A DNA stretch of 43,572 nucleotides from Oscillospiraceae bacterium. GTDB lineage: Bacteria; Bacillota; Clostridia; Oscillospirales; Oscillospiraceae. The notes beneath the pieces were generated by a model. It did not search any database. It was not told where the DNA came from and saw nothing but the letters and a program-made list of their open reading frames with translations. Location of the stretch: positions 1 to 43,572 of the forward strand of contig JAFRPC010000035.1 of assembly GCA_017429325.1 (NCBI GenBank). Reading direction: 5' to 3'. A program made the position numbers and the translations under genes. This document shows positions 9,808-34,920 of this stretch, one piece after another (within the stretch, counting starts at the first letter, position 1; each line of letters opens with the position of its first letter).

Positions 9808-10407
9808 TCAGCCCAGAGCCCGGGCTCTGGCGAATTTGCTCAAAGGCTGCGGGGCCAGGCCGAAGCGCTCCGTCAGCCGGGCGAGGAGGGCCAGGGAGGC
9901 GTCGGGGGCGCCTTCCTTTAGCTCCAGCTCCGCCTCGCAGAGGGGGAGAGACTCGGTGGGGCCGAAGAGGCGGCCCGCGTCCAGGGCCAGCTCACAGGCG
10001 CTCCCGTCGTCCAAGCGCAGCAGCACGGCGCGGCGGTGGAAATCCGCCCCGCAGATGGGGCGCAGCTCCCCCAACTCCGTCAGGAGGGCGGGGGCGCCCA
10101 GGGCCGTCAGCCGGGGCAGGGCGGCGGCGAGCTCGTCGCCTTCCACCTCCCATTCGCCCCGGAGATGGGAGTCCTCTGCGCCGAGGGGGGCCTTACAGCA
10201 GATCACGGAGCGCTCGTTCTCCATCCGGCGGCGGAGGGTCAGGCGGCGCCGGGTCAGCAGACGCTCCGGCGTGTCAAAATAGGTGGTCCGCATGTGGTAG
10301 TGCCGCAGGGGCTCCGCCGTCAGACGGCGAAGCTCCTCCCAGGCCAGAAGCTCCTCCAGCAGGGCAGGCTCCGGCACCGCCAGCTTCCACTCCAGCTCGG
10401 TCCCCAT
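9808..10407 (-). CDS. CYTH-domain protein (triphosphate-binding family)
   Basis: A 199-residue protein starting MGTELEWKL, which holds the ExExK signature of CYTH (CyaB/thiamine triphosphatase) proteins. Paired basic residues follow in strands TRRRLTLRRR and WEVEGDEL, as expected for a triphosphate tunnel. Members hydrolyse inorganic or nucleoside triphosphates or make cAMP; the exact substrate is unknown. It begins four bases after the CDP-alcohol phosphotransferase gene, so coupling is likely. Confidence 0.75.
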   Translation of the reverse strand: MGTELEWKLAVPEPALLEELLAWEELRRLTAEPLRHYHMRTTYFDTPERLLTRRRLTLRRRMENERSVICCKAPLGAEDSHLRGEWEVEGDELAAALPRLTALGAPALLTELGELRPICGADFHRRAVLLRLDDGSACELALDAGRLFGPTESLPLCEAELELKEGAPDASLALLARLTERFGLAPQPLSKFARARALG

Positions 10408-20905: not shown

Positions 20906-21340
20906 CTGCTCCCCGTTTCACGGTACCCTACCCTCGCTGTCCCCCGTTTCACGGCCCCCCGCTTTCTCCGCTCCCCACTTCACGGCACCTTGCCCGCTCT
21001 GCTTCCCCGCTTCACGGCACCCCGCCCTCTCTGCTTCCCCGCTTCACGGCGCTCTGCCCTTTCTGCTCCTCGCTTCACGGCGCCTTGCCCGCTCTGCTCC
21101 CCCACTTCACGACACCTTTCCCCTCTGCTCCCCCGCTTCACGGCGCCCTGCCCTCTCTGCTCGCCACTTCACAATCCCCTGCCCGCTCTGCTCCCCGCTT
21201 CACGGCACCTTTCCCCTCTGCTCCCCCGCTTCACGGCGCCCTGCCCTCTCTGCTCGCCACTTCACGGCACCCTGCCCGCTCTGCTCCCCACTTCACGATA
21301 CCTCGCCCGCTCTGCTCCCCGCTTCACACTCCCCCTCCGG
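20906..21340. repeat. Phased tandem array, fourteen 31-32 bp units
   Basis: A pyrimidine-rich unit resembling CTCTGCTCCCCGCTTCACGG is repeated without spacers. The TTCAC motif occurs at 20917, 20948, 20979, 21011, 21043, 21074, 21106, 21137, 21168, 21199, 21230, 21261, 21292 and 21323. The steps are always 31 or 32 bases, close to three helical turns. Frames through it encode only low-complexity Pro/Leu/Ser sequence, so I do not call a gene. It ends about 90 bp before tRNA-Thr. Confidence 0.9.
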
Positions 21341-21381
21341 CACTCCCTCCAATGCAAAAATGGTCCAGTAATATTTTTTTG

Positions 21382-21429: not shown

Positions 21430-21505
21430 GCTACTGTGGCTCAGTCGGTAGAGCAGCTGATTCGTAATCAGCAGGTCGCCGGTTCAAGTCCGGCCAGTAG
21501 CTCCA
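21430..21505 (+). tRNA. tRNA-Thr (CGT anticodon)
   Basis: A 76-nt cloverleaf with acceptor arms GCTACTG/CAGTAGC, anticodon stem GCTGA/TCAGC around TTCGTAA (anticodon CGT), T-arm CCGG-TTCAAGT-CCGG, and encoded CCA. Its 3' half from the anticodon loop is duplicated at 25101, which marks it as the integration site of a mobile element. Confidence 0.97.
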
Positions 21506-21619
21506 CTGGCACCCGGTTTTCGCAAGAAAGCCGGGTGTTTTGTCTCCAAAAGTGCCTCAAAAACAGCATTTTTCCTCCACTTTTGCAAAAATACGGTTTG
21601 GGTCAGCGTCTGGGTCAGG
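21461..21619 (+). repeat. Attachment-site repeat, copy 1 (with tRNA terminator)
   Basis: From TTCGTAATCAG in the anticodon loop, the tRNA 3' half and downstream DNA are shared with the copy at 25101; the first 60 bases are identical. It contains the tRNA terminator CACCCGG.../...CCGGGTG (21510-21537) followed by T residues. An IS3 element interrupts the repeat after GGGTCAGG. The missing tail, with GACCCAAACGCGGAAA, appears beyond the four-gene cassette near 24970. Confidence 0.85.
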
Positions 21620-21706
21620 TGGAATGCTATCATGTAAGTAGAGTCGTCAAACACCCAAAAGTATGATATAATCGACAAGAAAGAATCAAACGAAAGGGTG
21701 AAAGAA

Positions 21707-22000
21707 ATGACGACCTACGATAAGAGCTTCAAAGAAGAAGCGCTCAAGCTGTCGGACGAGATCGGCGTGACGAAGGCGGCAGCGCAGCTTGGTATTCCTT
21801 ACTACACGTTGTCAAACTGGAGGTACAAGCAGCACGCCTACGGAGACCTGGCTCACGTCGGCAGCGGCCATAAGCGAGAGCCCGGCGACGAAAAGGATCA
21901 GCGCATTCGGCAGCTCGAAAAGGAAAATGCGGAGTTGCAGCGTGCCAATGAGATTCTCCAGGAGGCACTCGGTTTTTTCGCAAAGAACCGAAAGAAGTAA
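21707..22000 (+). CDS. IS3-family transposase OrfA
   Basis: 97 residues with an N-terminal helix-turn-helix (SFKEEALKLSDEIGVTKAAA) and a C-terminal leucine-zipper-like helix (RIRQLEKENAELQRANEILQ). These are the DNA-binding and multimerisation parts of the IS3 transposase. The ATG is preceded by GAAAGGG. A slippery T TTT TTC (21973-21979) lies near its end, so part of the ribosomes should shift to the orfB frame. Confidence 0.9.
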   Translation: MTTYDKSFKEEALKLSDEIGVTKAAAQLGIPYYTLSNWRYKQHAYGDLAHVGSGHKREPGDEKDQRIRQLEKENAELQRANEILQEALGFFAKNRKK

Positions 22001-22878
22001 AAGCTCATCGGCGGTATGAATTTGCCGACCGGAACCGTGGGAGATGGCCGGTCAAGACCATCTGCAAGGTTCTCGGTGTCAGCGAATCCGGGTATTACCG
22101 TTACCGGAAAAACGCAGGAAAACCGGATCGGGATGAGGTTCTTTCGGCAGCGATGCAACAGATCCTTGACGAGCATCCCTGCAACGACAACTACGGCGCT
22201 CCTCGGATGCAGCTTGCGCTGCGGCAGAGAGGAATCGAGGTCGGCATCCGCAGGATCACGCGAATCATGCGGAAACACGGCTGGCTGCATACGCGCAGGC
22301 GCCCAAAAGGTCTGACAAAGGCTGATCCGGAAGCAATGGCGTCGGAAAACCTGCTGAAACAGGATTTCAGCGCTGACGAACCGTACAAAAAGCTGCTGAC
22401 GGACATTACTCAGGTTCAATGCCGGGACGGAAAGCTGTATATCTCTCCAATCCTGGATTGTTACAACGGCGAGATCCTTTCGCTGATTATGCGGAACAAC
22501 ATGAAGAAGGAGCTGTGTATGGACACGGTCAAAGCTCTGAACCGCTATCCGGTCAGAGGCGCGATCCTGCACAGCGACCGCGGCAGTCAGTATACAAGCG
22601 GAGGGTTCCGCGAGACATTGGAGAAGATGGGCCTCACGCAGAGCCTCAGCGGCGTCGCGCATTGCTATGACAATGCCAGGATGGAGAGCTTCTTCGCTAC
22701 GTTGAAGAAGGAACTGCTTTATCGTATCCCGACTTACAGAATGACCATTGAGCAGGTCAAGACGAGCGTGTTCCGGTACGTATTTACCTATTACAACCAG
22801 ATGAGAGTCTACACCAGCAACCCGGATGGTCTGCCTCCGGCGGTATACCGGAGAATGCAGATGGAGAAGGCGGCATAG
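21952..22878 (+). CDS. IS3-family transposase OrfB (made by -1 frameshift)
   Basis: The DDE integrase part of the transposase. The catalytic residues lie in LLTDITQVQ (Asp), HSDRGSQYTS (Asp) and ARMESFFATLKKE (Glu), with an N-terminal HTH_21-like region (GAPRMQLALRQRGIEVGIRR). The frame opens after a stop at 21949-21951 and has no good start codon until 22153, so an OrfAB fusion through the slippery heptamer is expected. The element looks intact and may be active. Confidence 0.88.
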   Translation, partial: DSPGGTRFFRKEPKEVKAHRRYEFADRNRGRWPVKTICKVLGVSESGYYRYRKNAGKPDRDEVLSAAMQQILDEHPCNDNYGAPRMQLALRQRGIEVGIRRITRIMRKHGWLHTRRRPKGLTKADPEAMASENLLKQDFSADEPYKKLLTDITQVQCRDGKLYISPILDCYNGEILSLIMRNNMKKELCMDTVKALNRYPVRGAILHSDRGSQYTSGGFRETLEKMGLTQSLSGVAHCYDNARMESFFATLKKELLYRIPTYRMTIEQVKTSVFRYVFTYYNQMRVYTSNPDGLPPAVYRRMQMEKAA

Positions 22879-23063
22879 CCTGGCGGCCCGCGCCGACTTC
22901 TGAAACCGCCCTCCGCTACGCTCCGGGCGGTTTCAGAAGTCGCAGACCCCGGCAGAAAACTTTGGGCGTTTCAAAGACTGCACTTTTCTTGACAATTCCA
23001 CTATGAGCATATATATTGATTATCTATATTCGTTTTTTATCCTTCCACAAAAAACTCCATTAA

Positions 23064-23092
23064 TTGACTTTTTTCGTGTTTTATGATATTAT
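23064..23092 (+). promoter_or_regulatory. Promoter of the AT-rich four-gene cassette
   Basis: TTGACT (23064-23069) and TATTAT (23087-23092) are 17 bases apart; an overlapping TATAAT starts at 23090. The region is strikingly AT-rich compared with the host genome. Confidence 0.7.
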
Positions 23093-23113
23093 AATAATAT
23101 ACAACTCAGGGGG

Positions 23114-23536
23114 GTGACGCATATCCATCGCCGGGGTCTTAACAGCGAGTATAAAAACATTAAATCGATTGAATATAAACAGAAACAAATCGAGGAAAAA
23201 ATACAAGCGCTGCAGAAGAAGCATCAAGAATTAGAGGAAAAAAAGGAAGATAGAACCAATGCATTGACAATTAAAGGTCTGCAGTATTATACTCCGGATA
23301 AACGCCGAGTATTGTTAGATAAAGCAGAAACTCTGTGTTATTCAAAATCTTCAATAGAAAGTATGCGCAAGATACGAGAAGATGAATGGAATATGGACAG
23401 TGTCGCTGCCACAACAATTGAAGAGTTAATGACAATTGAAGATTATATCAATGATAACACTCCAATTTGGACAAAACCATTTGCAATAATAGGTGAAGCG
23501 TTTTTAGGTGGAGGCAACGAAACCAATGAAGACTGA
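23114..23536 (+). CDS. Uncharacterised coiled-coil protein (cassette gene 1)
   Basis: 140 residues, not recognised. Residues 15-50 form a charged coiled coil (KQIEEKIQALQKKHQELEEK), followed by a globular-looking region and a Gly-rich end (FLGGGNETNED). The GTG start overlaps an unusually strong ribosome site (AGGGGGGTGA), so the real start may lie slightly downstream at a rare codon. It overlaps gene 2. The base composition is much more AT-rich than the surrounding genome, indicating recent transfer. Confidence 0.65.
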   Translation: MTHIHRRGLNSEYKNIKSIEYKQKQIEEKIQALQKKHQELEEKKEDRTNALTIKGLQYYTPDKRRVLLDKAETLCYSKSSIESMRKIREDEWNMDSVAATTIEELMTIEDYINDNTPIWTKPFAIIGEAFLGGGNETNED

Positions 23537-23816
23537 AATACTCTACCGGAATATTATATCCCAAGTTATAGTCCCAATAAAAACCCTCAGGTATTTTGGC
23601 GCAAGAGGCTTTCTATATCGTCATCACGTTTTAACTCATCCAGAGTCGAATTATTCTGTCTGGTTACATAAAGGCATTATTACTTTCTTCTATCCCCAGT
23701 TAACAGAATCAGATAAAAAAGAGATAAATCATTACGCGAATAATGTATTCAGTGAAATTAAGCACTATGTTTTGAAGGATTCATCAGATAGTATAATGTT
23801 AAGCACACGGGGATAA
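23526..23816 (+). CDS. Uncharacterised protein (cassette gene 2)
   Basis: 96 residues, not recognised, with no signal peptide or transmembrane helix. It is basic and aromatic in the middle (RYFGARGFLYRHHVLTHPES). The chosen ATG has GGAGG eleven bases upstream; an in-frame GTG at 23508 is an alternative. It overlaps gene 1 by eleven bases and ends three bases before gene 3, so the set is an operon. Confidence 0.65.
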   Translation: MKTEILYRNIISQVIVPIKTLRYFGARGFLYRHHVLTHPESNYSVWLHKGIITFFYPQLTESDKKEINHYANNVFSEIKHYVLKDSSDSIMLSTRG

Positions 23817-23818
23817 TT

Positions 23819-24172
23819 ATGAAAAAACGGATAGCATCATATTTATCGATAATTTTGTTGCTCATTCTAATAGGAATCCGACTTTTTCTTACAGATGATC
23901 AACAGTTATGGATCGATGTAGTAAATTGTTTGGGGTTGTTGTGCGCCTCGATTTTACTTGGGCTCAAAATACAAGAAAGAATAAAAGATAAAGAAAAAAA
24001 GAAAGTATTTATAGGACTTTTCGTTTTAGTGCTCACCTCTTTGCTAATTATCATTTGCCTAGTGTTCACAGGTGCAATAACGTTATCAGCAAAAGCCGCC
24101 GATGTAATTATGCTAATAACGCTACTACTTTCCCTCCCTACGGATGTGTATCTAAGTTGGGTTAAAGATTAA
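23819..24172 (+). CDS. Small polytopic membrane protein (cassette gene 3)
   Basis: 117 residues with about four transmembrane helices (roughly residues 5-23, 30-48, 62-82 and 90-108) and a Lys-rich cytoplasmic loop (KIQERIKDKEKKKV). No family is recognised. It starts two bases after gene 2. A membrane component next to coiled-coil and helical proteins is common in abortive-infection systems, but this is analogy only. Confidence 0.65.
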   Translation: MKKRIASYLSIILLLILIGIRLFLTDDQQLWIDVVNCLGLLCASILLGLKIQERIKDKEKKKVFIGLFVLVLTSLLIIICLVFTGAITLSAKAADVIMLITLLLSLPTDVYLSWVKD

Positions 24173-24200
24173 TTGAATTAAAACGGAGGTAATGATTGGA

Positions 24201-24872
24201 ATGGAAAATCATTTTGAACTAATCGATAATTATCTGAAAGTATGCTCAGGAAAGGCAATAGATGTTTTTTACGAGTTATACCAATTTGTTGAACCTTTGG
24301 ATTTTGCCAAACAAGCAAGTGCTATAAAGTATATCTGCGAAAAAGTCGAAGAAATCGATAGTGACTTCAGTTACACCGCAAAAAGTCATTTTAGCGAACT
24401 GCAATACTCCAAAATAGACATCAAGTTTCAAAAAAAGAACCTGCTTCAAAAAATATCTGCGTTAACGATTAGTTCGTCTATAAATGCCGAAGATCCATGT
24501 GTATTTTATGAAAAATTGTGGTCTCTCGTCATCAAGCTTACATCAAAAACAACCCGTGAACGAGCGCTTGCTTTGTATATGTTATCGCGTAGTGAGTTGA
24601 TTCCCTATCGTCCGATAGGCACGGGAATCTCCATGGAAGATGAAGAGTATAGAAGAATCCTTCGCAATTTGGACCCCTCGTTGATTGATAACGTAGAATA
24701 TATCGTTAAGTTACATTATGATCAAAAGACACAGTTTAGCTCTTTACTCTTGGATTGGTTACTGAGTATAAACGGCAGGGAATCTCAAGTTGTCTTCTTA
24801 TCGATTATCTTAAATAACATAAAACGCACAACTAAGAGAAATATTCAAGAAGCTATTGAAAACGCCGATTAA
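24201..24872 (+). CDS. Uncharacterised all-helical protein (cassette gene 4)
   Basis: 223 residues, not recognised. The sequence looks entirely alpha-helical (for example FVEPLDFAKQASAIKYICEK and FYEKLWSLVIKLTSKTTRER) with no catalytic motif that I can see. The ATG at 24201 is chosen because GGAGG lies eleven bases upstream; an earlier ATG at 24192 is too close to that site. It is last in the AT-rich operon. After it, 228 bases without a gene hold the displaced tail of attachment copy 1. Confidence 0.65.
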   Translation: MENHFELIDNYLKVCSGKAIDVFYELYQFVEPLDFAKQASAIKYICEKVEEIDSDFSYTAKSHFSELQYSKIDIKFQKKNLLQKISALTISSSINAEDPCVFYEKLWSLVIKLTSKTTRERALALYMLSRSELIPYRPIGTGISMEDEEYRRILRNLDPSLIDNVEYIVKLHYDQKTQFSSLLLDWLLSINGRESQVVFLSIILNNIKRTTKRNIQEAIENAD

Positions 24873-25100: not shown

Positions 25101-25275
25101 TTCGTAATCAGCAGGTCGCCGGTTCAAGTCCGGCCAGTAGCTCCACTGGCACCCGGTTTTCTTGCGAAAACCGGGTGTTTGTCTCCAAAAACGCCTCGAA
25201 AATGGAGTTTTTCCTCCACTTTGGCCTCAAATCGGTTTGGGTCAGCGTCTGGGGCAAGCGCCTGACCCACACAAG
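25101..25275 (+). repeat. Attachment-site repeat, copy 2
   Basis: The first 60 bases are identical to the tRNA-Thr 3' half plus its downstream sequence. Then comes a diverged copy of the terminator (ACCCGGTTTTC/GAAAACCGGGT, followed by GTTT), GTCTCCAAAA, and TTTGGGTCAGCGTCTGGG. The 5' half of the tRNA is absent. This is the expected product of site-specific integration into tRNA-Thr, and the integrase remnant lies next to it. Confidence 0.88.
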
Positions 25276-25595: not shown

Positions 25596-26497
25596 TCACC
25601 CAGTTAGGGGCTTGTTTTGTTCGGATACCCCAGTCCCGATTAGGTTTCCCATGATCGCCGCTGCCTGGTGCTGGGCGGCGGTGGTGGTGTGGGTGTAGGT
25701 CGCCAGGGTGAAGCCCGCGTTGCTGTGGCCCAGCATGGCGGAGACCGTTTTCACGTCCACGCCGTTTTGTAAGGCCAGCGTTGCGAAGGTGATTCCCCCG
25801 GTGAAGCGGGGGAAATGTCGCGAAGCGACAAAAGGGGGCCGTCGCCGGCGAGGCGATGCCGCAGATCGTGGAAGCGGATATGCTCCAGCCCCGCTTCTTT
25901 CAGGATCTTCTTGTGGAGGTTCACCACAGAATCCGGGTGGTACATCTCTCCAGCCACCGGAGAGGGGAAGATATACGGACTGCTCGGATGACTTTCTTTG
26001 TTTGCTTTTTTCTGCTGCTTCAACATGGTCAGCGTCTCCTCCGACAGGGCGATCTTCCGTACCGAGTTGGCTGTCTTGGGCGGGACCACCGTCAGCTTTC
26101 CGTCCGTCACGTAGGCCTGTTTGTTGACAGAGATCGTTCGCTCCTTCCAGTCCACATCTGTCCATTTCAGGGCCACCAGCTCGCTCTTTCTCATGCCGGT
26201 GGTCAGCTCCAGGAAGAACATGGGCAGCAAGCTTCTGGCGTCCGCCGCTTTCAGGTAGGCCTGGACCTGCTCCGGCTCCAGGGTCTTCATTTCCTTCCGC
26301 ACCAGCTTCGGAGGCTTGCAGTCGTCCACCGGATTGTATCGCAGCAGCTTCTCCCGGGCCGCTGCCTGGAGACAGGTATTGAGCATCGTGTGGATGCCCC
26401 GTATATAGGAAGCGCTGAATCCGGGCTTTTTCTCCCTCTGCGCTTCCCGCAAACGTCCGTTTGTGCGAAGGATCTTGTAAAACTATTGGATATACCT
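25596..26497 (-). pseudogene. Tyrosine integrase, broken by stop, truncation and 65-bp insertion
   Basis: The phage-type integrase catalytic domain is clear: ELTTGMRKSELVALKWTDVD (first Arg), HIRFHDLRH (H-x-x-R), TFATLALQNGVDVKTVSAML, GHSNAGFTLATYTH with the Tyr. The gene is dead. A 65-bp insert at 25791-25855 splits HDLRH from TFATLA and shifts the frame. An in-frame TAG (26483-26485) lies in YIQ-stop-FYKIL, and the N-terminal 70 or more residues are missing. It once served an element integrated at tRNA-Thr. The promoter of the EVE nuclease abuts its lost 5' end. Confidence 0.9.
25791..25855. repeat. 65-bp hairpin-chain insertion inside the integrase
   Basis: The insert starts GATTCCCCC and ends GGCGAGGCG. 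It holds CCCCC...GGGGG, GTCGC/GCGAC and TCGCCGGCGA palindromes in a row. Removing it restores the expected HDLRH-TFATLA join exactly. No transposase is encoded, so it is a very small non-autonomous mobile repeat. Confidence 0.85.
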
Positions 26498-26509
26498 GCT
26501 GAAACGGCA

Positions 26510-26538
26510 TTGATTTCATTTTCGTATTGATGTATAAT
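26510..26538 (+). promoter_or_regulatory. Promoter of the EVE nuclease gene
   Basis: TTGATT (26510-26515) and TATAAT (26533-26538) are 17 bases apart, about 35 bases before the GTG start. Confidence 0.75.
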
Positions 26539-26572: not shown

Positions 26573-27550
26573 GTGGCAGCACATATTTTTGTTTTGAACG
26601 AGGACAATTACCAAGTGTGCGTGAGAAAAGGCATTGTAGGACTTCCGGAGGTTTCGCCGGATGCGAAAAATGCAAGCAATACGATAGACGGTCTAATTTC
26701 CCGACTATCGCTGATTAAAGAAAATGACTATATCCTGTTTTATATCACGGGAAAGAAGGAACTGCGTGGTTTATGGAAAGCTTGTGGTGACGCCTTTTAT
26801 GATGAAACGCCGGTGTGGACAGACAAGATCTATCCCTTTCGATATCGGCTGTCCAATACTGAATATAGTTTTGAGAAGCCGCTCCATCTGCATGATATAT
26901 TTGACTTGCAAAGTGCGGGAAAGATCTGGACTTTTGCATTAAACCGCGCTTCAGGCTCCAATGCAGTTTTTTCAATTACTGATACTGAATTTTCCGTCCT
27001 CTTGAATGAATACTTTAAGATCAATCCGTTTTCTATAAAACGGAATATTATTATGGAGCCATATCCGGTTCGCCAACCAAATCTGTTTGAGCACCTCCAT
27101 TTTACACCTGCGCAAGAACCTAAGTACGAATACACGCTTATGTCACTTCTACTGAGAGATTTTGCCCAAAGACGCCATGTAGAAACATTTGGGCAGTATA
27201 CAGATTTTTTACCATATGTTCCCACAAATTTACAAACCGAGATGGATATTCTTCTTCTTTTCGGCAGTCCAAGCAATCCCAAAGAAATTGTGTCCTATGA
27301 TGTTTTGGAACTGAAACGAGACCTCTTTGACGAGAAAGCGTTAAAACAACTCATCGGGTACGAATCGTGGTTTATCCAGAAAAAAGTCCATGGCGATTTG
27401 AATATGGTTCGTACTACGGCAATAGCCGCTCGGTTTGAACCATCTGTTGTTGCCTATGTGCAAAAAAGGAAGCAAATTGAAGACAAAGAAATAAAGCTGC
27501 TGCGCTATGAATATCGGGACAATGCTATCCAACTCCTTCCAGTGTGTTAA
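26573..27550 (+). CDS. EVE-domain / PD-(D/E)XK nuclease, putative modification-dependent restriction enzyme
   Basis: 325 residues. The N-terminal part (about 1-140) looks like an EVE/PUA-like domain that binds modified bases: KENDYILFYITGKKELRGLW at 49-68 and then ETPVWTDKIYPFRYRL. The C-terminal part has a PD-(D/E)XK nuclease core: Glu186 in the first helix, Asp225 in EMDILLLFG, Glu246 and Lys248 in VLELKRD, and Gln259 in the following helix. This order of base reader plus nuclease suits a type IV enzyme that cuts DNA with modified cytosine. No methylase lies nearby, as expected for that type. The GTG start follows GGAGGGAG. The gene is AT-richer than the host. Confidence 0.7.
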   Translation: MAAHIFVLNEDNYQVCVRKGIVGLPEVSPDAKNASNTIDGLISRLSLIKENDYILFYITGKKELRGLWKACGDAFYDETPVWTDKIYPFRYRLSNTEYSFEKPLHLHDIFDLQSAGKIWTFALNRASGSNAVFSITDTEFSVLLNEYFKINPFSIKRNIIMEPYPVRQPNLFEHLHFTPAQEPKYEYTLMSLLLRDFAQRRHVETFGQYTDFLPYVPTNLQTEMDILLLFGSPSNPKEIVSYDVLELKRDLFDEKALKQLIGYESWFIQKKVHGDLNMVRTTAIAARFEPSVVAYVQKRKQIEDKEIKLLRYEYRDNAIQLLPVC

Positions 27551-28275: not shown

Positions 28276-28462
28276 AACCACCGGAGAATGTCAAGACCGA
28301 AATCCGGCAGGTCCTGACTCCATCATATTATACGCTTCCTCTATTTCTCTGTGATTCATATTGAAAGCTATGCTTAGATTGATTATAATATCGCAGGAAG
28401 CCGAAAAGGCATCGAAACCTTTTGACTATCGATATAATGACAGAAACGAGGAGGAAAACCAT

Positions 28463-29275
28463 ATGAATAACAAGGTTACTCCCATCGGTGCACATGCGGA
28501 GCACGATACTGTCTTACAAGCGCTTCGGAACGTTGTGCACCGCATTAGCCCAAAGATAGCCGCAAACGCTTTTCTGTATAGTCTTTCCACGCGGGCTTTA
28601 GAATATCGCTCAGTACTTGGAAGTTACTGGTATGCTGTTGCGATTCCAGATCATACGCCCACTGACAGTTGGCATTGTTACGATTGCGGGTGGTACAGCA
28701 AAAACCGAACTCGCTATTCTCCAAACAATCAAGCGGCAATGGAAAGCGTTTTAGAGCAATTGATAACGCCAGAAACTGCTGCTCTAAAGGATGCGCTGCT
28801 GCTGGCACTGGAGTCCGTTATTCTGGGAAACTCCGGAAAGCCTGATTACAGTTGTGTACATACATCTCCTCAACAATGTCTGCTTGTATTGCAGCATTTT
28901 CTCACATTGCCGCCTGTACAGCACACAGAGCAGGACGAACTGCTTCTGCAAAAGCTCTTGCAGTGTGTGTACGCAATAGAGCCTCATCAGCGGGGACGTG
29001 TTCTGCAAAAGACAATAACAAAAGCGAGGATCATTAGGTCCAATGCATACGAAATTGACGACCTTCTGAATGCATTGGGCATTTGCGGTGTACTGTCGTC
29101 TAAGCGAGCTCCCTGTTATATAGAGTTTTTCCCTAATGAATATCAACGGAGTCCAGAAACAGACACAGATCTGTTGTACCCACTCAATTGGTGGCGTGCT
29201 AGTGACGGCGTCAACCAAGAACGCTACCAAATAGTCTTTGGCAAGCCCTGGCCGGGACCTATCATGATAGAGTGA
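28463..29275 (+). CDS. Uncharacterised 270-residue protein
   Basis: Not recognised as a named family. It is mostly helical. A CYDCGWY pair of cysteines sits near residue 64, and the C-terminal part has DDLLNALGICGVLSS, then LNWWRASDGVNQERYQIVFG, which look conserved-domain-like and could be a nucleic-acid-binding or winged-helix end. The ATG is chosen because GAGGAGG lies ten bases upstream. It lies between attachment copy 3 and an integrase remnant, so it is cargo of an accreted element. Confidence 0.65.
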   Translation: MNNKVTPIGAHAEHDTVLQALRNVVHRISPKIAANAFLYSLSTRALEYRSVLGSYWYAVAIPDHTPTDSWHCYDCGWYSKNRTRYSPNNQAAMESVLEQLITPETAALKDALLLALESVILGNSGKPDYSCVHTSPQQCLLVLQHFLTLPPVQHTEQDELLLQKLLQCVYAIEPHQRGRVLQKTITKARIIRSNAYEIDDLLNALGICGVLSSKRAPCYIEFFPNEYQRSPETDTDLLYPLNWWRASDGVNQERYQIVFGKPWPGPIMIE

Positions 29276-29279
29276 GTCG

Positions 29280-29425
29280 GAGACAGTTCTAATCGGGTAT
29301 TCTCGGATCCGACTATACTCCCCATGATTGCCGCTGCCTGGTGTTGGGTTGACGTGGTGGAGTAGGTGCAGGCAGCCAGGGTGAATCCTGCGTTGCTGTG
29401 GCCCAGCATTGCGGAGACGGCTTAC
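29280..29425 (-). pseudogene. Remnant of a second tyrosine integrase (C-terminus)
   Basis: Only VSAMLGHSNAGFTLAACTYS and STQHQAAAIMGSIVG remain, clearly homologous to the C-terminus of the integrase at 25.6-26.5 kb but diverged from it. The catalytic Tyr is in the remaining part; everything before VSAML is gone. It marks a second, older integration event at the same tRNA. Confidence 0.85.
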
Positions 29426-29554: not shown

Positions 29555-32500
29555 ATGGATGCAAAAGATCGGCAAATTGAACGGCTGACAGCGCGGGTCG
29601 AAGCGTTGGAGCGGGAGAACAAGATGCTTTGGGATCTGCTGCGGAGGGGGACGGGCGAAGAAGATTGTTGGCCGCCGCTCTCGTTTGCGGAGGATGCGCA
29701 TCTTGACGACTGCTTGCAGGCGGGCAGGGCTTCCGAGAAATCGGCACCGCCGACCACAGCGCCTCTTGCCGCATCAGAGCCGATGACGATTGCGCCTCCT
29801 GTCGCATCAGAGCCGACGATAATTGCAGCTCCCGCTGTACCGGAAGCGAGGAAAGTGCGCAGCGGCCTCAATCAATATGCGCCGCCTGACGAGAAGATCG
29901 CGTTGTTTCGGTCGTTGTTTCGAGGGCGGGAGGACGTCTATGCCCGGCGCTGGCAGAGCTTGAAGACTGGGAAAAGCGGATATTCCCCCGCCTGCGCCAA
30001 CGAGTGGGTGCCCGGCGTCTGCCCGAAGCCGAAGGGCAGCTGCAAGGACTGTGCACACCGGGAGCTGCTGCCGCTGACTGACGCGGTGATCGAAACCCAT
30101 TTGCGCGGGCGCGACGCATACGGGCGGGACGTGATAGGCATCTATCCGATCCTGCCCGACGACACCTGCTGCTTTCTGGCCCTGGACTTCGACGACGAGG
30201 GATGGCGAGAGAACGTGACCGCCGTCCGGGAGGTCTGCCGCCGCTGGGAACTGCCCTGCGCGGTGGAGCGCTCCCGGAGCGGGGAAGGTGCGCATCTCTG
30301 GCTGTTTTTTGAGGCTGCCGTTTCCTGCGCCGAGGCCCGGCGGCTGGGGACGGCTCTTTTGACTGCCGCGATGACAATCGGAGGCACCCTGAAACTGACC
30401 GCCTATGACCGCATGTTTCCCAATCAGGACACCCTGCCAAAGGGTGGATTTGGGAATTTGATTTCCTTGCCCCTCCAGGGGCAAGCTCGGAAAAACGGCA
30501 ACAGTATCTTTGTGAACGAGCAATTTGCGCCATATCCGGACCAGTGGGCGTTCCTGGCCTCCACCCGAAAACTGTCTGCGGACGAATTTGAAGCGGCTTG
30601 TCAACTCCATGCCCGAGGCAACATTTTTGGCAATCTGCTCCCCAGCGAGGAAACGCCGAAGCCCTGGGAAAAGAAGACGCCTGTCCGATTGACTGCCATG
30701 GACTTTCCCGCTGAGCTGGAGATCATCCGGAGCAATCTGCTCCATCTGCCCCAGGCGGGGCTGTCCCCGCGGGCAAAGGACCAACTCGTCCGGCTGGCAG
30801 CCTTCCGCAACCCGGACTTTTACCGAGCTCAGGCCCTGCGCCTGCCCATCTACAATAAGCCCCGCATTCTCAACACCGCCGAGGAGCGGGACGGGTACCT
30901 GGCCCTGCCCAGGGGCTGCGAGGAAGGACTGACGGAGCTGCTGGACTGTGCCTACGCCGCATATACCTTTGCCGAGCGTCGGAACGCGGGTCGGGAGATC
31001 CGGGTCAGCTTCACCGGCGAGCTTCGCCCGGAACAACTCCCGGCAGCGAAGGCACTGCTGGCCCATGATACCGGCGTTCTGGCCGCGGCGACAGCCTTCG
31101 GGAAAACCGTAGTCGCCGCCTGGCTGATCGGCAAACGGAAGGTCAACACGCTCATTTTGGTCCATTCCCAAGCCCTGCTGAATCAGTGGCGTTCCGCCCT
31201 GGAGGAATTCCTGCGAATCGACGAGATTCTGGAGCCCCTCCCCGGCAAGCGAGGTCGAAAAAAGAGTCGCCCGCTGATTGGGCAGCTCGGCGGCGGCAAA
31301 AACACACTCTCCGGCCTTGTGGATGTAGCAATCATGCAGTCTCTCCTGTCCGGCGACGAGGTGAGTGGGCTGGTCAAAGACTATGGGCAGGTCATCGTGG
31401 ACGAATGCCACCACGTCTCCGCTGTGACCTTTGAACGGATCATGAAGGAGGTTGCAGCGAAATATGTGCACGGGCTCAGCGCCACGCCCACCCGTGCGGA
31501 CGGCTGTCAACCGATTGTATTTCTGCAATGCGGGCCGATTCGGTATCAGGTGGACGCAAAGGAGCAGGCAAAGAAACGCGGCTTTGTACAGTTCATTATC
31601 CCGCGCTTTACAGCATTTCGTACCGCTGCGGAAGAGAAGGGCGTCGCTTCAATGTATAACGCTCTGGCGGAGGACGAGCAGCGAAATCTAATGATCGTTC
31701 GGGATGTAAAGCGGGCTCTTGCTCAGGGCCGCAGCCCGATCCTGCTGACGGAGCGGCGCGAGCATGTGGAACGACTGGCAGCTCTGTTGGCCCCGTGCTG
31801 CCCTAATGTGATCACGATGTACGGGACGACTTCCGCAAAACTGCGCCGGGAAACCATGGAACGGTTGGAAGTCGTTCCGCCGACAGAGCCGCTGGCAGTC
31901 ATTGCCACCGGAAAATATGTGGGGGAGGGCTTCGACTGTCCCCGACTCGATACTCTGTTCCTCGCCCTGCCTGTGGCCTGGAAGGGTACCGTGGCGCAGT
32001 ATGTCGGTCGGCTTCATCGGAACTATCCCAGCAAAGATGAGGTACAGGTTTACGACTACGTAGATATTCATGTGCCGATGTTGGAAAATATGTACCAGAA
32101 GCGATTGAAAGCCTACGCTGCAATAGGTTATCACATAAAGGCTGACGCCGAAACGCCGCTTACAAAGGACTTGATCTATGACGGCAAAAGCTTTTACCCG
32201 GTGATCTGTCAGGATCTGCAAAGTGCTGAAAAGGAGATCCTGATTGTCAGTCCGTTTATGTCAAAAGTCCGACTGAAAAAGCTGGTAAAGGTTCTAACAG
32301 AGCCGATCCTGCGTGGGGTCGCAGTCAAGGCAATCGTTCGCCCGCCGGAAGATTTGCCGCTCAGGGATCGAAAGGCCGTGCCGGACGATGCGGAATACTT
32401 AATGGATTATGGCATTCAGGTGGTGTTTCGTTCCGGGTTTCATCAGAAGTTCACGGTGATCGACGGTCGCATCTCCTGGTACGGCAGTGTCAACATTCTC

Positions 32501-32602
32501 AGCTTCGGCAAGTCGGAGGAGAGCGTCATGCGACTGGAGAGCTCTGAAATCGCGGGCGAACTGATCGGCACCGTGACAAAAGAAACAGAAACGGAGAAAT
32601 AA
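29555..32602 (+). CDS. TOTE-type conflict protein: primase-polymerase, SF2 helicase and PLD nuclease
   Basis: A 1,015-residue multidomain protein. An N-terminal coiled coil (1-30) and a Pro/Ala linker lead into an archaeo-eukaryotic primase domain. That domain has a Cys cluster (Cys147, 156, 163, 166), the metal motif LALDFDDE (Asp211, Asp213) and SGEGAHLWLFF (His247). Then comes a superfamily-2 helicase: ATAFGKT (512-518), DECHH (616-620), SATPTR (642-647), QYVGRLHR (815-822). The end is a single phospholipase-D motif HQKFTVIDG...GS (963-978), a nuclease fold. This order is that of TOTE conflict-system effectors, thought to attack invader nucleic acid. RecQ follows after 44 bases. Confidence 0.82.
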   Translation: MDAKDRQIERLTARVEALERENKMLWDLLRRGTGEEDCWPPLSFAEDAHLDDCLQAGRASEKSAPPTTAPLAASEPMTIAPPVASEPTIIAAPAVPEARKVRSGLNQYAPPDEKIALFRSLFRGREDVYARRWQSLKTGKSGYSPACANEWVPGVCPKPKGSCKDCAHRELLPLTDAVIETHLRGRDAYGRDVIGIYPILPDDTCCFLALDFDDEGWRENVTAVREVCRRWELPCAVERSRSGEGAHLWLFFEAAVSCAEARRLGTALLTAAMTIGGTLKLTAYDRMFPNQDTLPKGGFGNLISLPLQGQARKNGNSIFVNEQFAPYPDQWAFLASTRKLSADEFEAACQLHARGNIFGNLLPSEETPKPWEKKTPVRLTAMDFPAELEIIRSNLLHLPQAGLSPRAKDQLVRLAAFRNPDFYRAQALRLPIYNKPRILNTAEERDGYLALPRGCEEGLTELLDCAYAAYTFAERRNAGREIRVSFTGELRPEQLPAAKALLAHDTGVLAAATAFGKTVVAAWLIGKRKVNTLILVHSQALLNQWRSALEEFLRIDEILEPLPGKRGRKKSRPLIGQLGGGKNTLSGLVDVAIMQSLLSGDEVSGLVKDYGQVIVDECHHVSAVTFERIMKEVAAKYVHGLSATPTRADGCQPIVFLQCGPIRYQVDAKEQAKKRGFVQFIIPRFTAFRTAAEEKGVASMYNALAEDEQRNLMIVRDVKRALAQGRSPILLTERREHVERLAALLAPCCPNVITMYGTTSAKLRRETMERLEVVPPTEPLAVIATGKYVGEGFDCPRLDTLFLALPVAWKGTVAQYVGRLHRNYPSKDEVQVYDYVDIHVPMLENMYQKRLKAYAAIGYHIKADAETPLTKDLIYDGKSFYPVICQDLQSAEKEILIVSPFMSKVRLKKLVKVLTEPILRGVAVKAIVRPPEDLPLRDRKAVPDDAEYLMDYGIQVVFRSGFHQKFTVIDGRISWYGSVNILSFGKSEESVMRLESSEIAGELIGTVTKETETEK

Positions 32603-32646: not shown

Positions 32647-34920
32647 ATGGACAAACAGACGGTTTTGCGGGAACGCTTTGGGTTTCGTTCCTTCCGGGAC
32701 GGGCAGGAGGCGCTGATCGACGCGATCCTGGCCGGGCGGGACGCCTTTGGGGTCATGCCGACCGGCGGCGGAAAAAGCTTGTGCTATCAGCTCTCGGCGC
32801 TCCTGCTGGAAGGACTGACATTGGTGATCTCCCCGCTGATCTCGCTGATGAAGGACCAGGTGGCGGCGTTGAAGGAGGCGGGGATCCCCGCGGCCTTTCT
32901 CAACTCCTCCCTGACGGCTGGACAGCAGCGGGAGGTACTGCGCCGGGCGGAGGCTGGGGCCTACCGCCTGATTTATGTCACCCCGGAGCGGCTCATGACC
33001 GAGGGCTTTCTCTCCTTTGCCGCCGGGCAAAAGCTCTCCCTGCTGGCCGTAGACGAGGCCCACTGTGTCAGCCAATGGGGACAGGACTTCCGGCCAAACT
33101 ATCTGGACATTCCTGCGTTTGTGCGCCGCCTGCAGCGTCGTCCCGTCATCGCAGCCTTTACGGCTACGGCCACTGCGGAGGTGGGGGACGACGTTGTGCG
33201 GCTATTGGGGCTGCGGGAGCCCTGCCGGGTCGTTACGGGCTTCGACCGCCCCAATCTGTTCTTTGACGTGCGCCGGGAGCGGGACAAGCTCGCCTGGCTC
33301 AAGAACTATCTTCTGGCGCACCGGGACAGGAGCGGGATCGTCTACTGCGCCACCCGGAAGACTGTGGAGCAGGTCTGCGAAAAACTGCGGGCAGCCGGTT
33401 TTGCCGCGACCCGCTACCATGCGGGCCTGGATGAGGCCGAACGCCGGGAGAACCAGGAGGACTTCGCCTTTGACCGCGCCGCGGTCATGGTGGCGACCAA
33501 CGCCTTCGGCCTGGGGATCGACAAATCCAACGTGAGCTTCGTGATCCACTACAACATGCCGAAGAACATCGAGAGCTACTATCAGGAGGCCGGACGCGCC
33601 GGACGGGACGGAGCTCCCGCGGACTGTATTCTGCTGTTTTCCGCCGGAGACGTGATCACGGCGAAGTACCTGATCGAGAACGGCAGTGACCGCGACCAGC
33701 TCCCGGAGGAGCTGCGGGAGGAACTGCTGCGACGGGATATGCGGCGGCTCCGGCAGATAGAGGACTACTGCAAAAGCTCTGGCTGCTATCGTGCCGCACT
33801 GCTGGATTATTTCGGCGAACCGCATCGCCCGACCTGCGCTTGCTGCGGGAATTGCCTGCAAACTGAGGAGACTCCCTCCGGCGAGACGGTGGAGGAGGAC
33901 ATCACCCTCGCCGCGCAGAAGATCCTCTCCTGCGTTCGCCGGGTGGAACGGCAGAATCGGATCGGCCTTGGCGAGACCATGATCGTATTGATTTTGGCGG
34001 GCAGCAGAGACAAGACCCTGCTGGCGCGGGAGTATGACCTGCTCTCCACCTATGGCCTGATGAAGGGCACGAACCGAAATCTGCTGCACGAATACATCCG
34101 CGCTTTGAGTAAACAAGGGTATCTGACCCGGCCGCCCGGAGAGTATGACGTGCTGCAAACCACGGAGCGGGCGGATGCCGTCCTCTTCCGCGGTGAACAG
34201 GTCCTGTGGCGTCACGCGGCTGCGGAGGAACCGCAGTCACAAAAGAAAAAGCCCGCCGCGCCCGGAAGACAGGCGGCAGCGGAGCAGAGCTTATTTGACC
34301 AGCTCCGGGCCCTGCGCACAGAACTAGCGATGCAGGCCGGCGTGCCGGCCTACGTGATCTTCCATGACGCGACGCTGCTGAAGCTCGCGGAGGCAAAGCC
34401 GGGCACGGAAGAAGAACTGCTCGCCGTTCCCGGCATCGGGGAGCAGAAGGCGGCGAAATACGGAAAGGCCGTGTTGGAGCTCATTGCCGCTTGCACGGCA
34501 AAGCAAGCGCAGAATACAAAGGCCCCCGGAAAAAACGAGGCAAAGCCGCTGCTGCGGCTTCGCCCTGACCAGCTGGCCCGGTATGCCTGCGACCCCGAGG
34601 GGATCTCCATGTCCACCTTTGCCCGCCGCCTCACCGAATTGAAGGATGCGGATCAGCCCGGCATCCTGACTGGTCGGCAGATCTCCGACCAGCTGCTGGC
34701 GGAGGGCTTGCTCACCGAGGAGCTTGCCGATACGGGCCGCCTCCGCCGCCGTCCCACCCCTGCCGGGGAAGCGGCGGGAATCATTATGACCGAACGTACA
34801 AAGGAGAACGGAGAAAGCTATGTCATGGTCACGCTGACAGAGCCAGCCCAGCGCCGCCTGATCTCCCAACTGTCGGCCAACAGCGAAGCCGATGCAATTG
34901 TACAGCCGGAGAGATTATAA
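32647..34920 (+). CDS. recQ: RecQ-family DNA helicase
   Basis: A 757-residue 3'-5' DNA helicase. Motif I is MPTGGGKSLCYQ (37-48), motif II DEAHCVSQWGQDFRP (136-150), and motif VI is in YYQEAGRAGRDG. The zinc cluster of the RQC region includes CACCGNC, and an HRDC domain follows (LRALRTELAMQAGVPAYVIF, about residues 555-620). A further 100-residue tail, with LARYACDPEGISMSTFARRL, is longer than in E. coli RecQ. GGGCAAGGAG lies before the ATG. Being downstream of the TOTE-like gene, it may serve that system rather than be the housekeeping copy. Confidence 0.92.
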   Translation: MDKQTVLRERFGFRSFRDGQEALIDAILAGRDAFGVMPTGGGKSLCYQLSALLLEGLTLVISPLISLMKDQVAALKEAGIPAAFLNSSLTAGQQREVLRRAEAGAYRLIYVTPERLMTEGFLSFAAGQKLSLLAVDEAHCVSQWGQDFRPNYLDIPAFVRRLQRRPVIAAFTATATAEVGDDVVRLLGLREPCRVVTGFDRPNLFFDVRRERDKLAWLKNYLLAHRDRSGIVYCATRKTVEQVCEKLRAAGFAATRYHAGLDEAERRENQEDFAFDRAAVMVATNAFGLGIDKSNVSFVIHYNMPKNIESYYQEAGRAGRDGAPADCILLFSAGDVITAKYLIENGSDRDQLPEELREELLRRDMRRLRQIEDYCKSSGCYRAALLDYFGEPHRPTCACCGNCLQTEETPSGETVEEDITLAAQKILSCVRRVERQNRIGLGETMIVLILAGSRDKTLLAREYDLLSTYGLMKGTNRNLLHEYIRALSKQGYLTRPPGEYDVLQTTERADAVLFRGEQVLWRHAAAEEPQSQKKKPAAPGRQAAAEQSLFDQLRALRTELAMQAGVPAYVIFHDATLLKLAEAKPGTEEELLAVPGIGEQKAAKYGKAVLELIAACTAKQAQNTKAPGKNEAKPLLRLRPDQLARYACDPEGISMSTFARRLTELKDADQPGILTGRQISDQLLAEGLLTEELADTGRLRRRPTPAGEAAGIIMTERTKENGESYVMVTLTEPAQRRLISQLSANSEADAIVQPERL

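Follow-up and report, generated by a model that had tools for sequence, protein, structure and literature searches.

Four small genes lie beside a tRNA gene in the 43,572-nucleotide stretch of DNA analyzed here (the window). They raise two questions: whether they form a genuine system and, if so, whether that system serves in defence. Our answer is that they constitute a rare conserved four-gene unit, that their fourth gene recurs, with different partners, across a family of operons, and that the unit is probably a defence system. The relevant features of the window are as follows.

21430..21505, + strand: tRNA-Thr (CGT), located with ARAGORN; integration site of the island
21461..21540, + strand: left attachment-type repeat (tRNA 3' end plus flank)
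21698..22878, + strand: IS3-type element, with an HTH_Tnp_1 ORF (21698-22000) and an integrase-core ORF (22153-22878), both by Pfam
23064..23092, + strand: promoter-like site, TTGACT-17-TATTAT, 10/12, consensus match only
23114..23536, + strand: gene 1, 140 aa, coiled coil at the N-terminus (by reading)
23526..23816, + strand: gene 2, 96 aa, small protein
23819..24172, + strand: gene 3, 117 aa, membrane protein, putative effector
24192..24872, + strand: gene 4, 226 aa, all-helical, putative control subunit
25101..25180, + strand: right attachment-type repeat
29555-32602: AEP-TOTE (E 3e-98), a TOTE-type primase-helicase-PLD protein
32647-34920: RecQ

The cassette and its island

The genes are tightly arranged, with the overlapping or near-touching ends described in the initial annotation: genes 1 and 2 overlap by 11 nt, and gaps of 2 nt and 19 nt follow. 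The AT-richness it reported is equally clear (35.4% GC, against 58.6% for the whole window). Its proposal of one promoter is less secure. A consensus-like site does lie at 23064, and promoter-like sequence is found upstream of the cassette both here and (by reading) in the second genome that carries it, G439. However, better 11/12 matches occur at 22989, reading out of the IS end, and at 23264, inside gene 1, and nine promoter-like sites were found where 6.1 were expected. Because the site at 23064 is a match to consensus only, with these rivals and this background, the single promoter is unproven.

The start of gene 1 is uncertain, lying at GTG 23114 or at an in-frame ATC at 23123 (window 23108-23125). 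In both cassettes the gene lacks a normal start codon suitably spaced from a ribosome-binding site. The GTG in the window overlaps the ribosome-binding AGGGGGGTGA site, and in G439 (L007 about 9870-9910, - strand) an in-frame ATC follows a GGAGG site. The distance from the ATC to the GLQYY motif, counted by hand, is 51 residues in the window and 53 in G439. The start is possibly a non-standard AUC.

Protein 1 contains the conserved region GLQYY...LCYSK...WNxDS. Protein 2 had been called basic, which it is, but mildly (12 K+R vs 8 D+E); its structure model, of low confidence (pLDDT 52.5), shows strands and one helix. The four membrane helices assigned to protein 3 are a reading of hydropathy: the windows cluster at four places in the window's protein but at only three in its G439 relative. 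Protein 4 is all-helical as claimed, with eleven helices predicted in its structure model. The best model reached a pLDDT of 84.8 and the other four 70-77. Comparison of the protein 4 model with PDB and viral models gave no good match, a result that does not establish a new fold.

None of the four families had been recognized from the sequence, and library searches concur: Pfam, NCBIfam, PHROGs and PADLOC yielded no convincing match. Searched against PADLOC to E 1, the four proteins had no match, and PHROGs gave none better than E 0.002, that one on the coiled coil. Matches to phage-structural or plasmid-maintenance families, which had been named as evidence against the defence reading, were absent above cut-off for all four proteins in the same four libraries.

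The cassette was said to lie between attachment repeats, and two copies of the tRNA-Thr 3' end indeed flank it, at 21461 and 25101. The repeats (21461-21540 and 25101-25180) share 94% identity over 80 nt and are exact for at least the first 45 nt. The IS3-type element separates the cassette from the left repeat. Its ends were placed by reading and are not firm; the right end is at about 23003, and there is no clear terminal repeat. The segment carrying the cassette is without an integrase. Since the flank homology of the left repeat stops at 21617, about where the IS begins, insertion of the IS may have removed an integrase from this segment. Just upstream of the tRNA, a tandem repeat with a spacing of about 31 nt occupies 20911-21347.

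Past the right repeat come, in order, a split integrase, a near-threshold EVE protein, a further, diverged copy of the repeat's flank, the TOTE-type protein and RecQ. The integrase (25596-26519, - strand) reads over two frames, and a second integrase C-terminal fragment, recognized by reading and by an 82% DNA repeat, lies at 29224-29409 on the - strand. The island thus looks like several integrations with decayed integrases. The protein encoded at 26573-27550 has a weak EVE match (E 1.2e-4, 22.5 bits against a cut-off of 23) and, by reading, a nuclease-like C-terminal part; it is a possible modified-base restriction factor. The 304-aa protein encoded at 28361-29275 had no Pfam match at E 0.01 and no PADLOC match at E 1. 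The nuclease, TOTE and RecQ neighbours named in the initial annotation are present, the nuclease-like part by reading, but all lie beyond the first repeat pair. Literature searches found none on TOTE and, judged by title, nothing relevant on the combination of TOTE, PNP and nitrilase. The tRNA-Thr locus was also read in three genomes of the same genus (G020, G018 and G017). Downstream of it, G017 alone has a gene for an McrBC component (L042 890-1684, PF10117, E 1.4e-6), a single example; no defence gene was seen by reading at the loci of G020 and G018.

Recurrence of the unit and the protein 4 family

Whether the set recurs as a unit had been put forward as a check, and it does. All four genes occur together in G439, a genome of the same family, as four ORFs on one strand that match the cassette in identical order. 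Identities over the alignments are 35, 20, 40 and 37-38% for proteins 1-4. The first pair is related at BLASTP E 3e-21 over 78 residues, and the weakest pair (20% identity) at E 6e-06. Because all four genes recur together, the cassette, of which two copies are known (window and G439), is a genuine unit beyond chance.

The G439 operon has 59% GC in a locus of 61% GC. AT-richness is therefore a trait of the window copy and not of the system; in the window it perhaps reflects recent arrival. Recurrence beside known defence genes, the second part of the proposed check, is weak: the G439 cassette stands among housekeeping genes, flanked by acpP and a phosphoglucomutase gene (names by reading translations), and no defence gene was seen in the 16 kb around it that were read in translation. 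Its proteins had no PADLOC match except Cas5 at E 0.0053 for one of them. The phage family nearest to its membrane protein was Phage_holin_2 (E 0.019, 15.7 bits against a cut-off of 32). A protein 3 profile run against 300 family genomes returned the window plus two chance-like matches; G185 and G203, matched inside ORFs of 418 and 318 aa, were dropped.

Protein 4 reaches further. Its family comprises eight loci (window, G439, G044, G047, G210, G270, G616 and G733). Matches at E 0.001, in samples that overlap and with the window's genome counted where sampled, were found in 3/148 relatives, 6/400 genomes of the family (five besides the window's), 5/394 of the order and 2/391 of the class, one of the latter by chance. 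Two other families of the order gave 1/138 and 1/63, each match being already in the profile. The protein 4 family is rare. When genome contigs were scanned with the protein 4 rows of the two cassettes, one locus was confirmed, G439 again. G1073 (E 8.7e-4) was dropped from the family; by reading it encodes a universal-stress-like protein.

The relatives came from searches that used protein 4 or profiles containing it, so part of their score is built in. A profile of the six non-cassette members nevertheless gave protein 4 a score of 81.0 bits and its relative in G439 one of 76.3, against 7.8 for the best of 1000 shuffles and 2.4 for the next best of 387 window ORFs. Aligned by hhalign, two two-row protein 4 profiles matched at 97.5% probability. 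P138, Y139, Q178, T180, S184 and V201 are invariant in all eight aligned sequences, of which two are incomplete at the N-terminus. The family motifs, PY...G..M and QxT...S, are present in the C-terminal half of the cassette's protein 4. That half is better conserved than the N-terminal half (mean majority fraction 0.46 vs 0.31, the lower value being depressed by the two incomplete rows). A Pfam search at E up to 10 found no family for protein 4, and one at E 0.1 none for its relatives P0008, P0010 and P0011. Where we call the family undescribed, we mean that it has no match in Pfam, NCBIfam, PHROGs or PADLOC.

Partners of protein 4

Partners are visible at seven of the eight loci; the gene in G270 starts at a contig end, and this locus is counted as a family member but not for partners. 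They fall into three sets. The first, a coiled-coil protein, a small protein and a membrane protein, is that of the window and G439.

In the second set (G047, G210 and G733) a nitrilase-like gene is followed by a winged-helix gene and then by protein 4, an order kept at all three loci with gaps of 11 to 135 nt. The assignment of the first partner, a protein of 505-516 aa, as a nitrilase is weak. One of the three proteins matches CN_hydrolase at E 0.023, and the other two, scanned to E 0.01, have no match. E284 and C382 are invariant in their alignment, and we take them to be catalytic residues. A nitrilase profile run against 160 family genomes recovered just its two founding members and three chance-level matches, and is thus uninformative on how often the enzyme stands alone; G156, G027 and G234 (E 2e-4 to 8e-4) were dropped. 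A CARF reading of the winged-helix partners was rejected, as the PADLOC Csa3/CARF matches centre on the HTH part. No relation was seen between protein 1 and either the nitrilase-like or the winged-helix partners. As a unit, this set could serve metabolism or regulation. The G047 operon adjoins an AAA_14/DUF4143 ATPase gene (L009 3759-5108), which matches the PADLOC candidate PDC-S01 at E 7.5e-111.

In the third set protein 4 is followed by a PNP-type nucleosidase, at both loci where it occurs (G044 and G616), with gaps of 15 and 4 nt; the G616 protein 4 gene is incomplete at a contig end and has an in-frame stop nearby. Serine recombinase genes lie within about 2.5 kb of both loci. The two nucleosidases match PADLOC PDC-M60C at E 8e-44 and 1.7e-54. 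The match begins at position 139 of 407, and the preceding region is missing. Three plasmid PDC-M60C proteins, by comparison, span the model from position 1 to 399-406, and their genes lie downstream of one small gene plus one or two that are larger. The Klebsiella PDC-M60C reference has a receiver-like domain before position 139 (E 7.5e-06, below cut-off). At the Klebsiella locus a small receiver-domain gene precedes the effector and is itself preceded by a gene for 1159 aa that has no Pfam match (E 1e-5); the other two plasmid effectors showed no receiver by Pfam at E 1e-5.

In their arrangement, in which the small gene comes after the larger one or two, these plasmid loci resemble Detocs, a three-gene system (PMC11249213; see also PMC10952713) whose nucleosidase effectors cleave ATP (PMC11249213). 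We infer that PDC-M60 corresponds to Detocs. The enzyme beside two protein 4 relatives would then be homologous to a Detocs effector, but it lacks the region before position 139, and its neighbour is instead a relative of protein 4. A nucleosidase is missing altogether from the window cassette: the PNP-type domain is absent from its four proteins by Pfam and occurs beside the protein 4 relatives in G044 and G616. The same four proteins gave no match at E up to 10 to Response_reg, the receiver feature of Detocs.

Two further systems invite comparison. A nitrilase domain is the proposed effector of DRT1 (PMC13275509), and three protein 4 operons appear to have one too. There, however, the nitrilase-like enzyme is a stand-alone protein partnered by a winged-helix protein, and it gave no match to a reverse transcriptase; the window cassette is without a nitrilase. 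The reverse transcriptase-nitrilase fusion that marks DRT1 is absent, by Pfam, from both the cassette and the nitrilase-like partners. Panacea (PanA, DUF4065) combines one constant partner with several unrelated toxins, and the validated ones include membrane disruptors (PMC8832971). The protein 4 pattern is alike in setting one constant protein against many unrelated effectors, some membrane-active. It differs in that protein 4 has no Pfam match, DUF4065 included, at E up to 10, and in that the operons comprise three or four genes at five of the seven visible loci. By the features tested, the cassette belongs to none of Detocs, DRT1 and Panacea.

In abortive infection systems with membrane effectors, soluble proteins share an operon with a small multi-TM protein. 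The cassette is built likewise, but no sequence relation to any PADLOC member was found. The abortive-infection look ascribed to it initially gains support through the nucleosidase and nitrilase-like neighbours of the protein 4 relatives; the cassette itself adds none.

Function of the cassette

The reading we prefer, although tentatively and at a little under an even chance, is that the cassette is a four-gene abortive-infection defence operon on a tRNA-integrated element, with protein 4 as a control subunit and an exchangeable killing part. The operon recurs in one other genome, and its fourth protein has a family with differing partners. From here we infer toxicity of protein 3, its restraint or switching by protein 4 and a phage trigger. 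A control subunit with swappable effectors is suggested because protein 4 is the constant element and its partners are enzymes of known or proposed killing types or a membrane protein. Protein 4 would be kept across operons while the killing part is exchanged: the membrane protein here, a nucleosidase or a nitrilase-like enzyme elsewhere. Sensing or coupling, specific to each system, may fall to proteins 1 and 2. Before infection, protein 4, aided by proteins 1 and 2, would silence protein 3; phage infection would break or alter the complex of proteins 1-4, and protein 3 could then damage the membrane before phage maturation.

A bolder version, which we regard as plausible but somewhat less probable, is that these operons represent an undescribed effector-swapping immune family. 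Helical protein 4 would govern at least three unrelated killing modules, namely the membrane protein, an ATP-type nucleosidase and a nitrilase, and would replace in trans the receiver domain of Detocs effectors. If this reading is true, one small family marks defence operons that are unmodelled in the PADLOC and Pfam copies used, and a new membrane effector is tied to nucleosidase and nitrilase-like effectors by one control subunit. The question that becomes testable is whether one regulator can serve chemically unrelated effectors and, if so, what it senses.

The main rival explains much of the same pattern on the Panacea model. The cassette would be a toxin-antitoxin module that stabilizes the island, with protein 3 (or protein 2) as toxin, protein 4 as a promiscuous antitoxin and no phage sensing. 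Tight packing of the genes and mobile-element signs at three loci (window, G044 and G616) are consistent with this, as is a constant partner with several unrelated potential toxins, the pattern of Panacea (PMC8832971). Set against it, five loci have three- or four-gene operons and not pairs; at those five the constant gene comes last, and either the winged helix or proteins 1 and 2 are retained. The PDC-M60C-type nucleosidase is, moreover, a type of defence effector. We consider the toxin-antitoxin explanation somewhat unlikely.

Less probable again is a structural or envelope complex that kills nothing, in which protein 4 serves unrelated operons as a helical adaptor of general use. The all-helical model of protein 4 would suit an adaptor, and the second cassette is chromosomal, with normal GC and housekeeping neighbours, but the sporadic spread of the family (five other genomes among 400) speaks against housekeeping, and two of the partners are PDC-M60C-type nucleosidases.

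Cargo of a phage satellite or prophage remnant, of use to the element and not to the host, is the least likely reading, quite improbable in our view: the attachment repeats around the cassette and the integrase remnants alongside would fit it, but protein 4 had no relative in the phage and plasmid records searched, the best PHROG match was the coiled-coil one already noted, and viral contigs scanned with proteins 1, 3 and 4 or their relatives or profiles gave no relative, in scans that rely on short patterns and can miss distant relatives. Plasmids scanned with the G439 proteins P0007 and P0005 likewise gave no relative, and with the nitrilase-like protein of G733 no match, whereas 61 plasmid records match the G044 nucleosidase. 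In pKTa005_3, an E. coli plasmid, an overlapping gene annotated as DUF4231 (L026 5809-6261) follows a PDC-M60C-type nucleosidase and is a possible fourth component.
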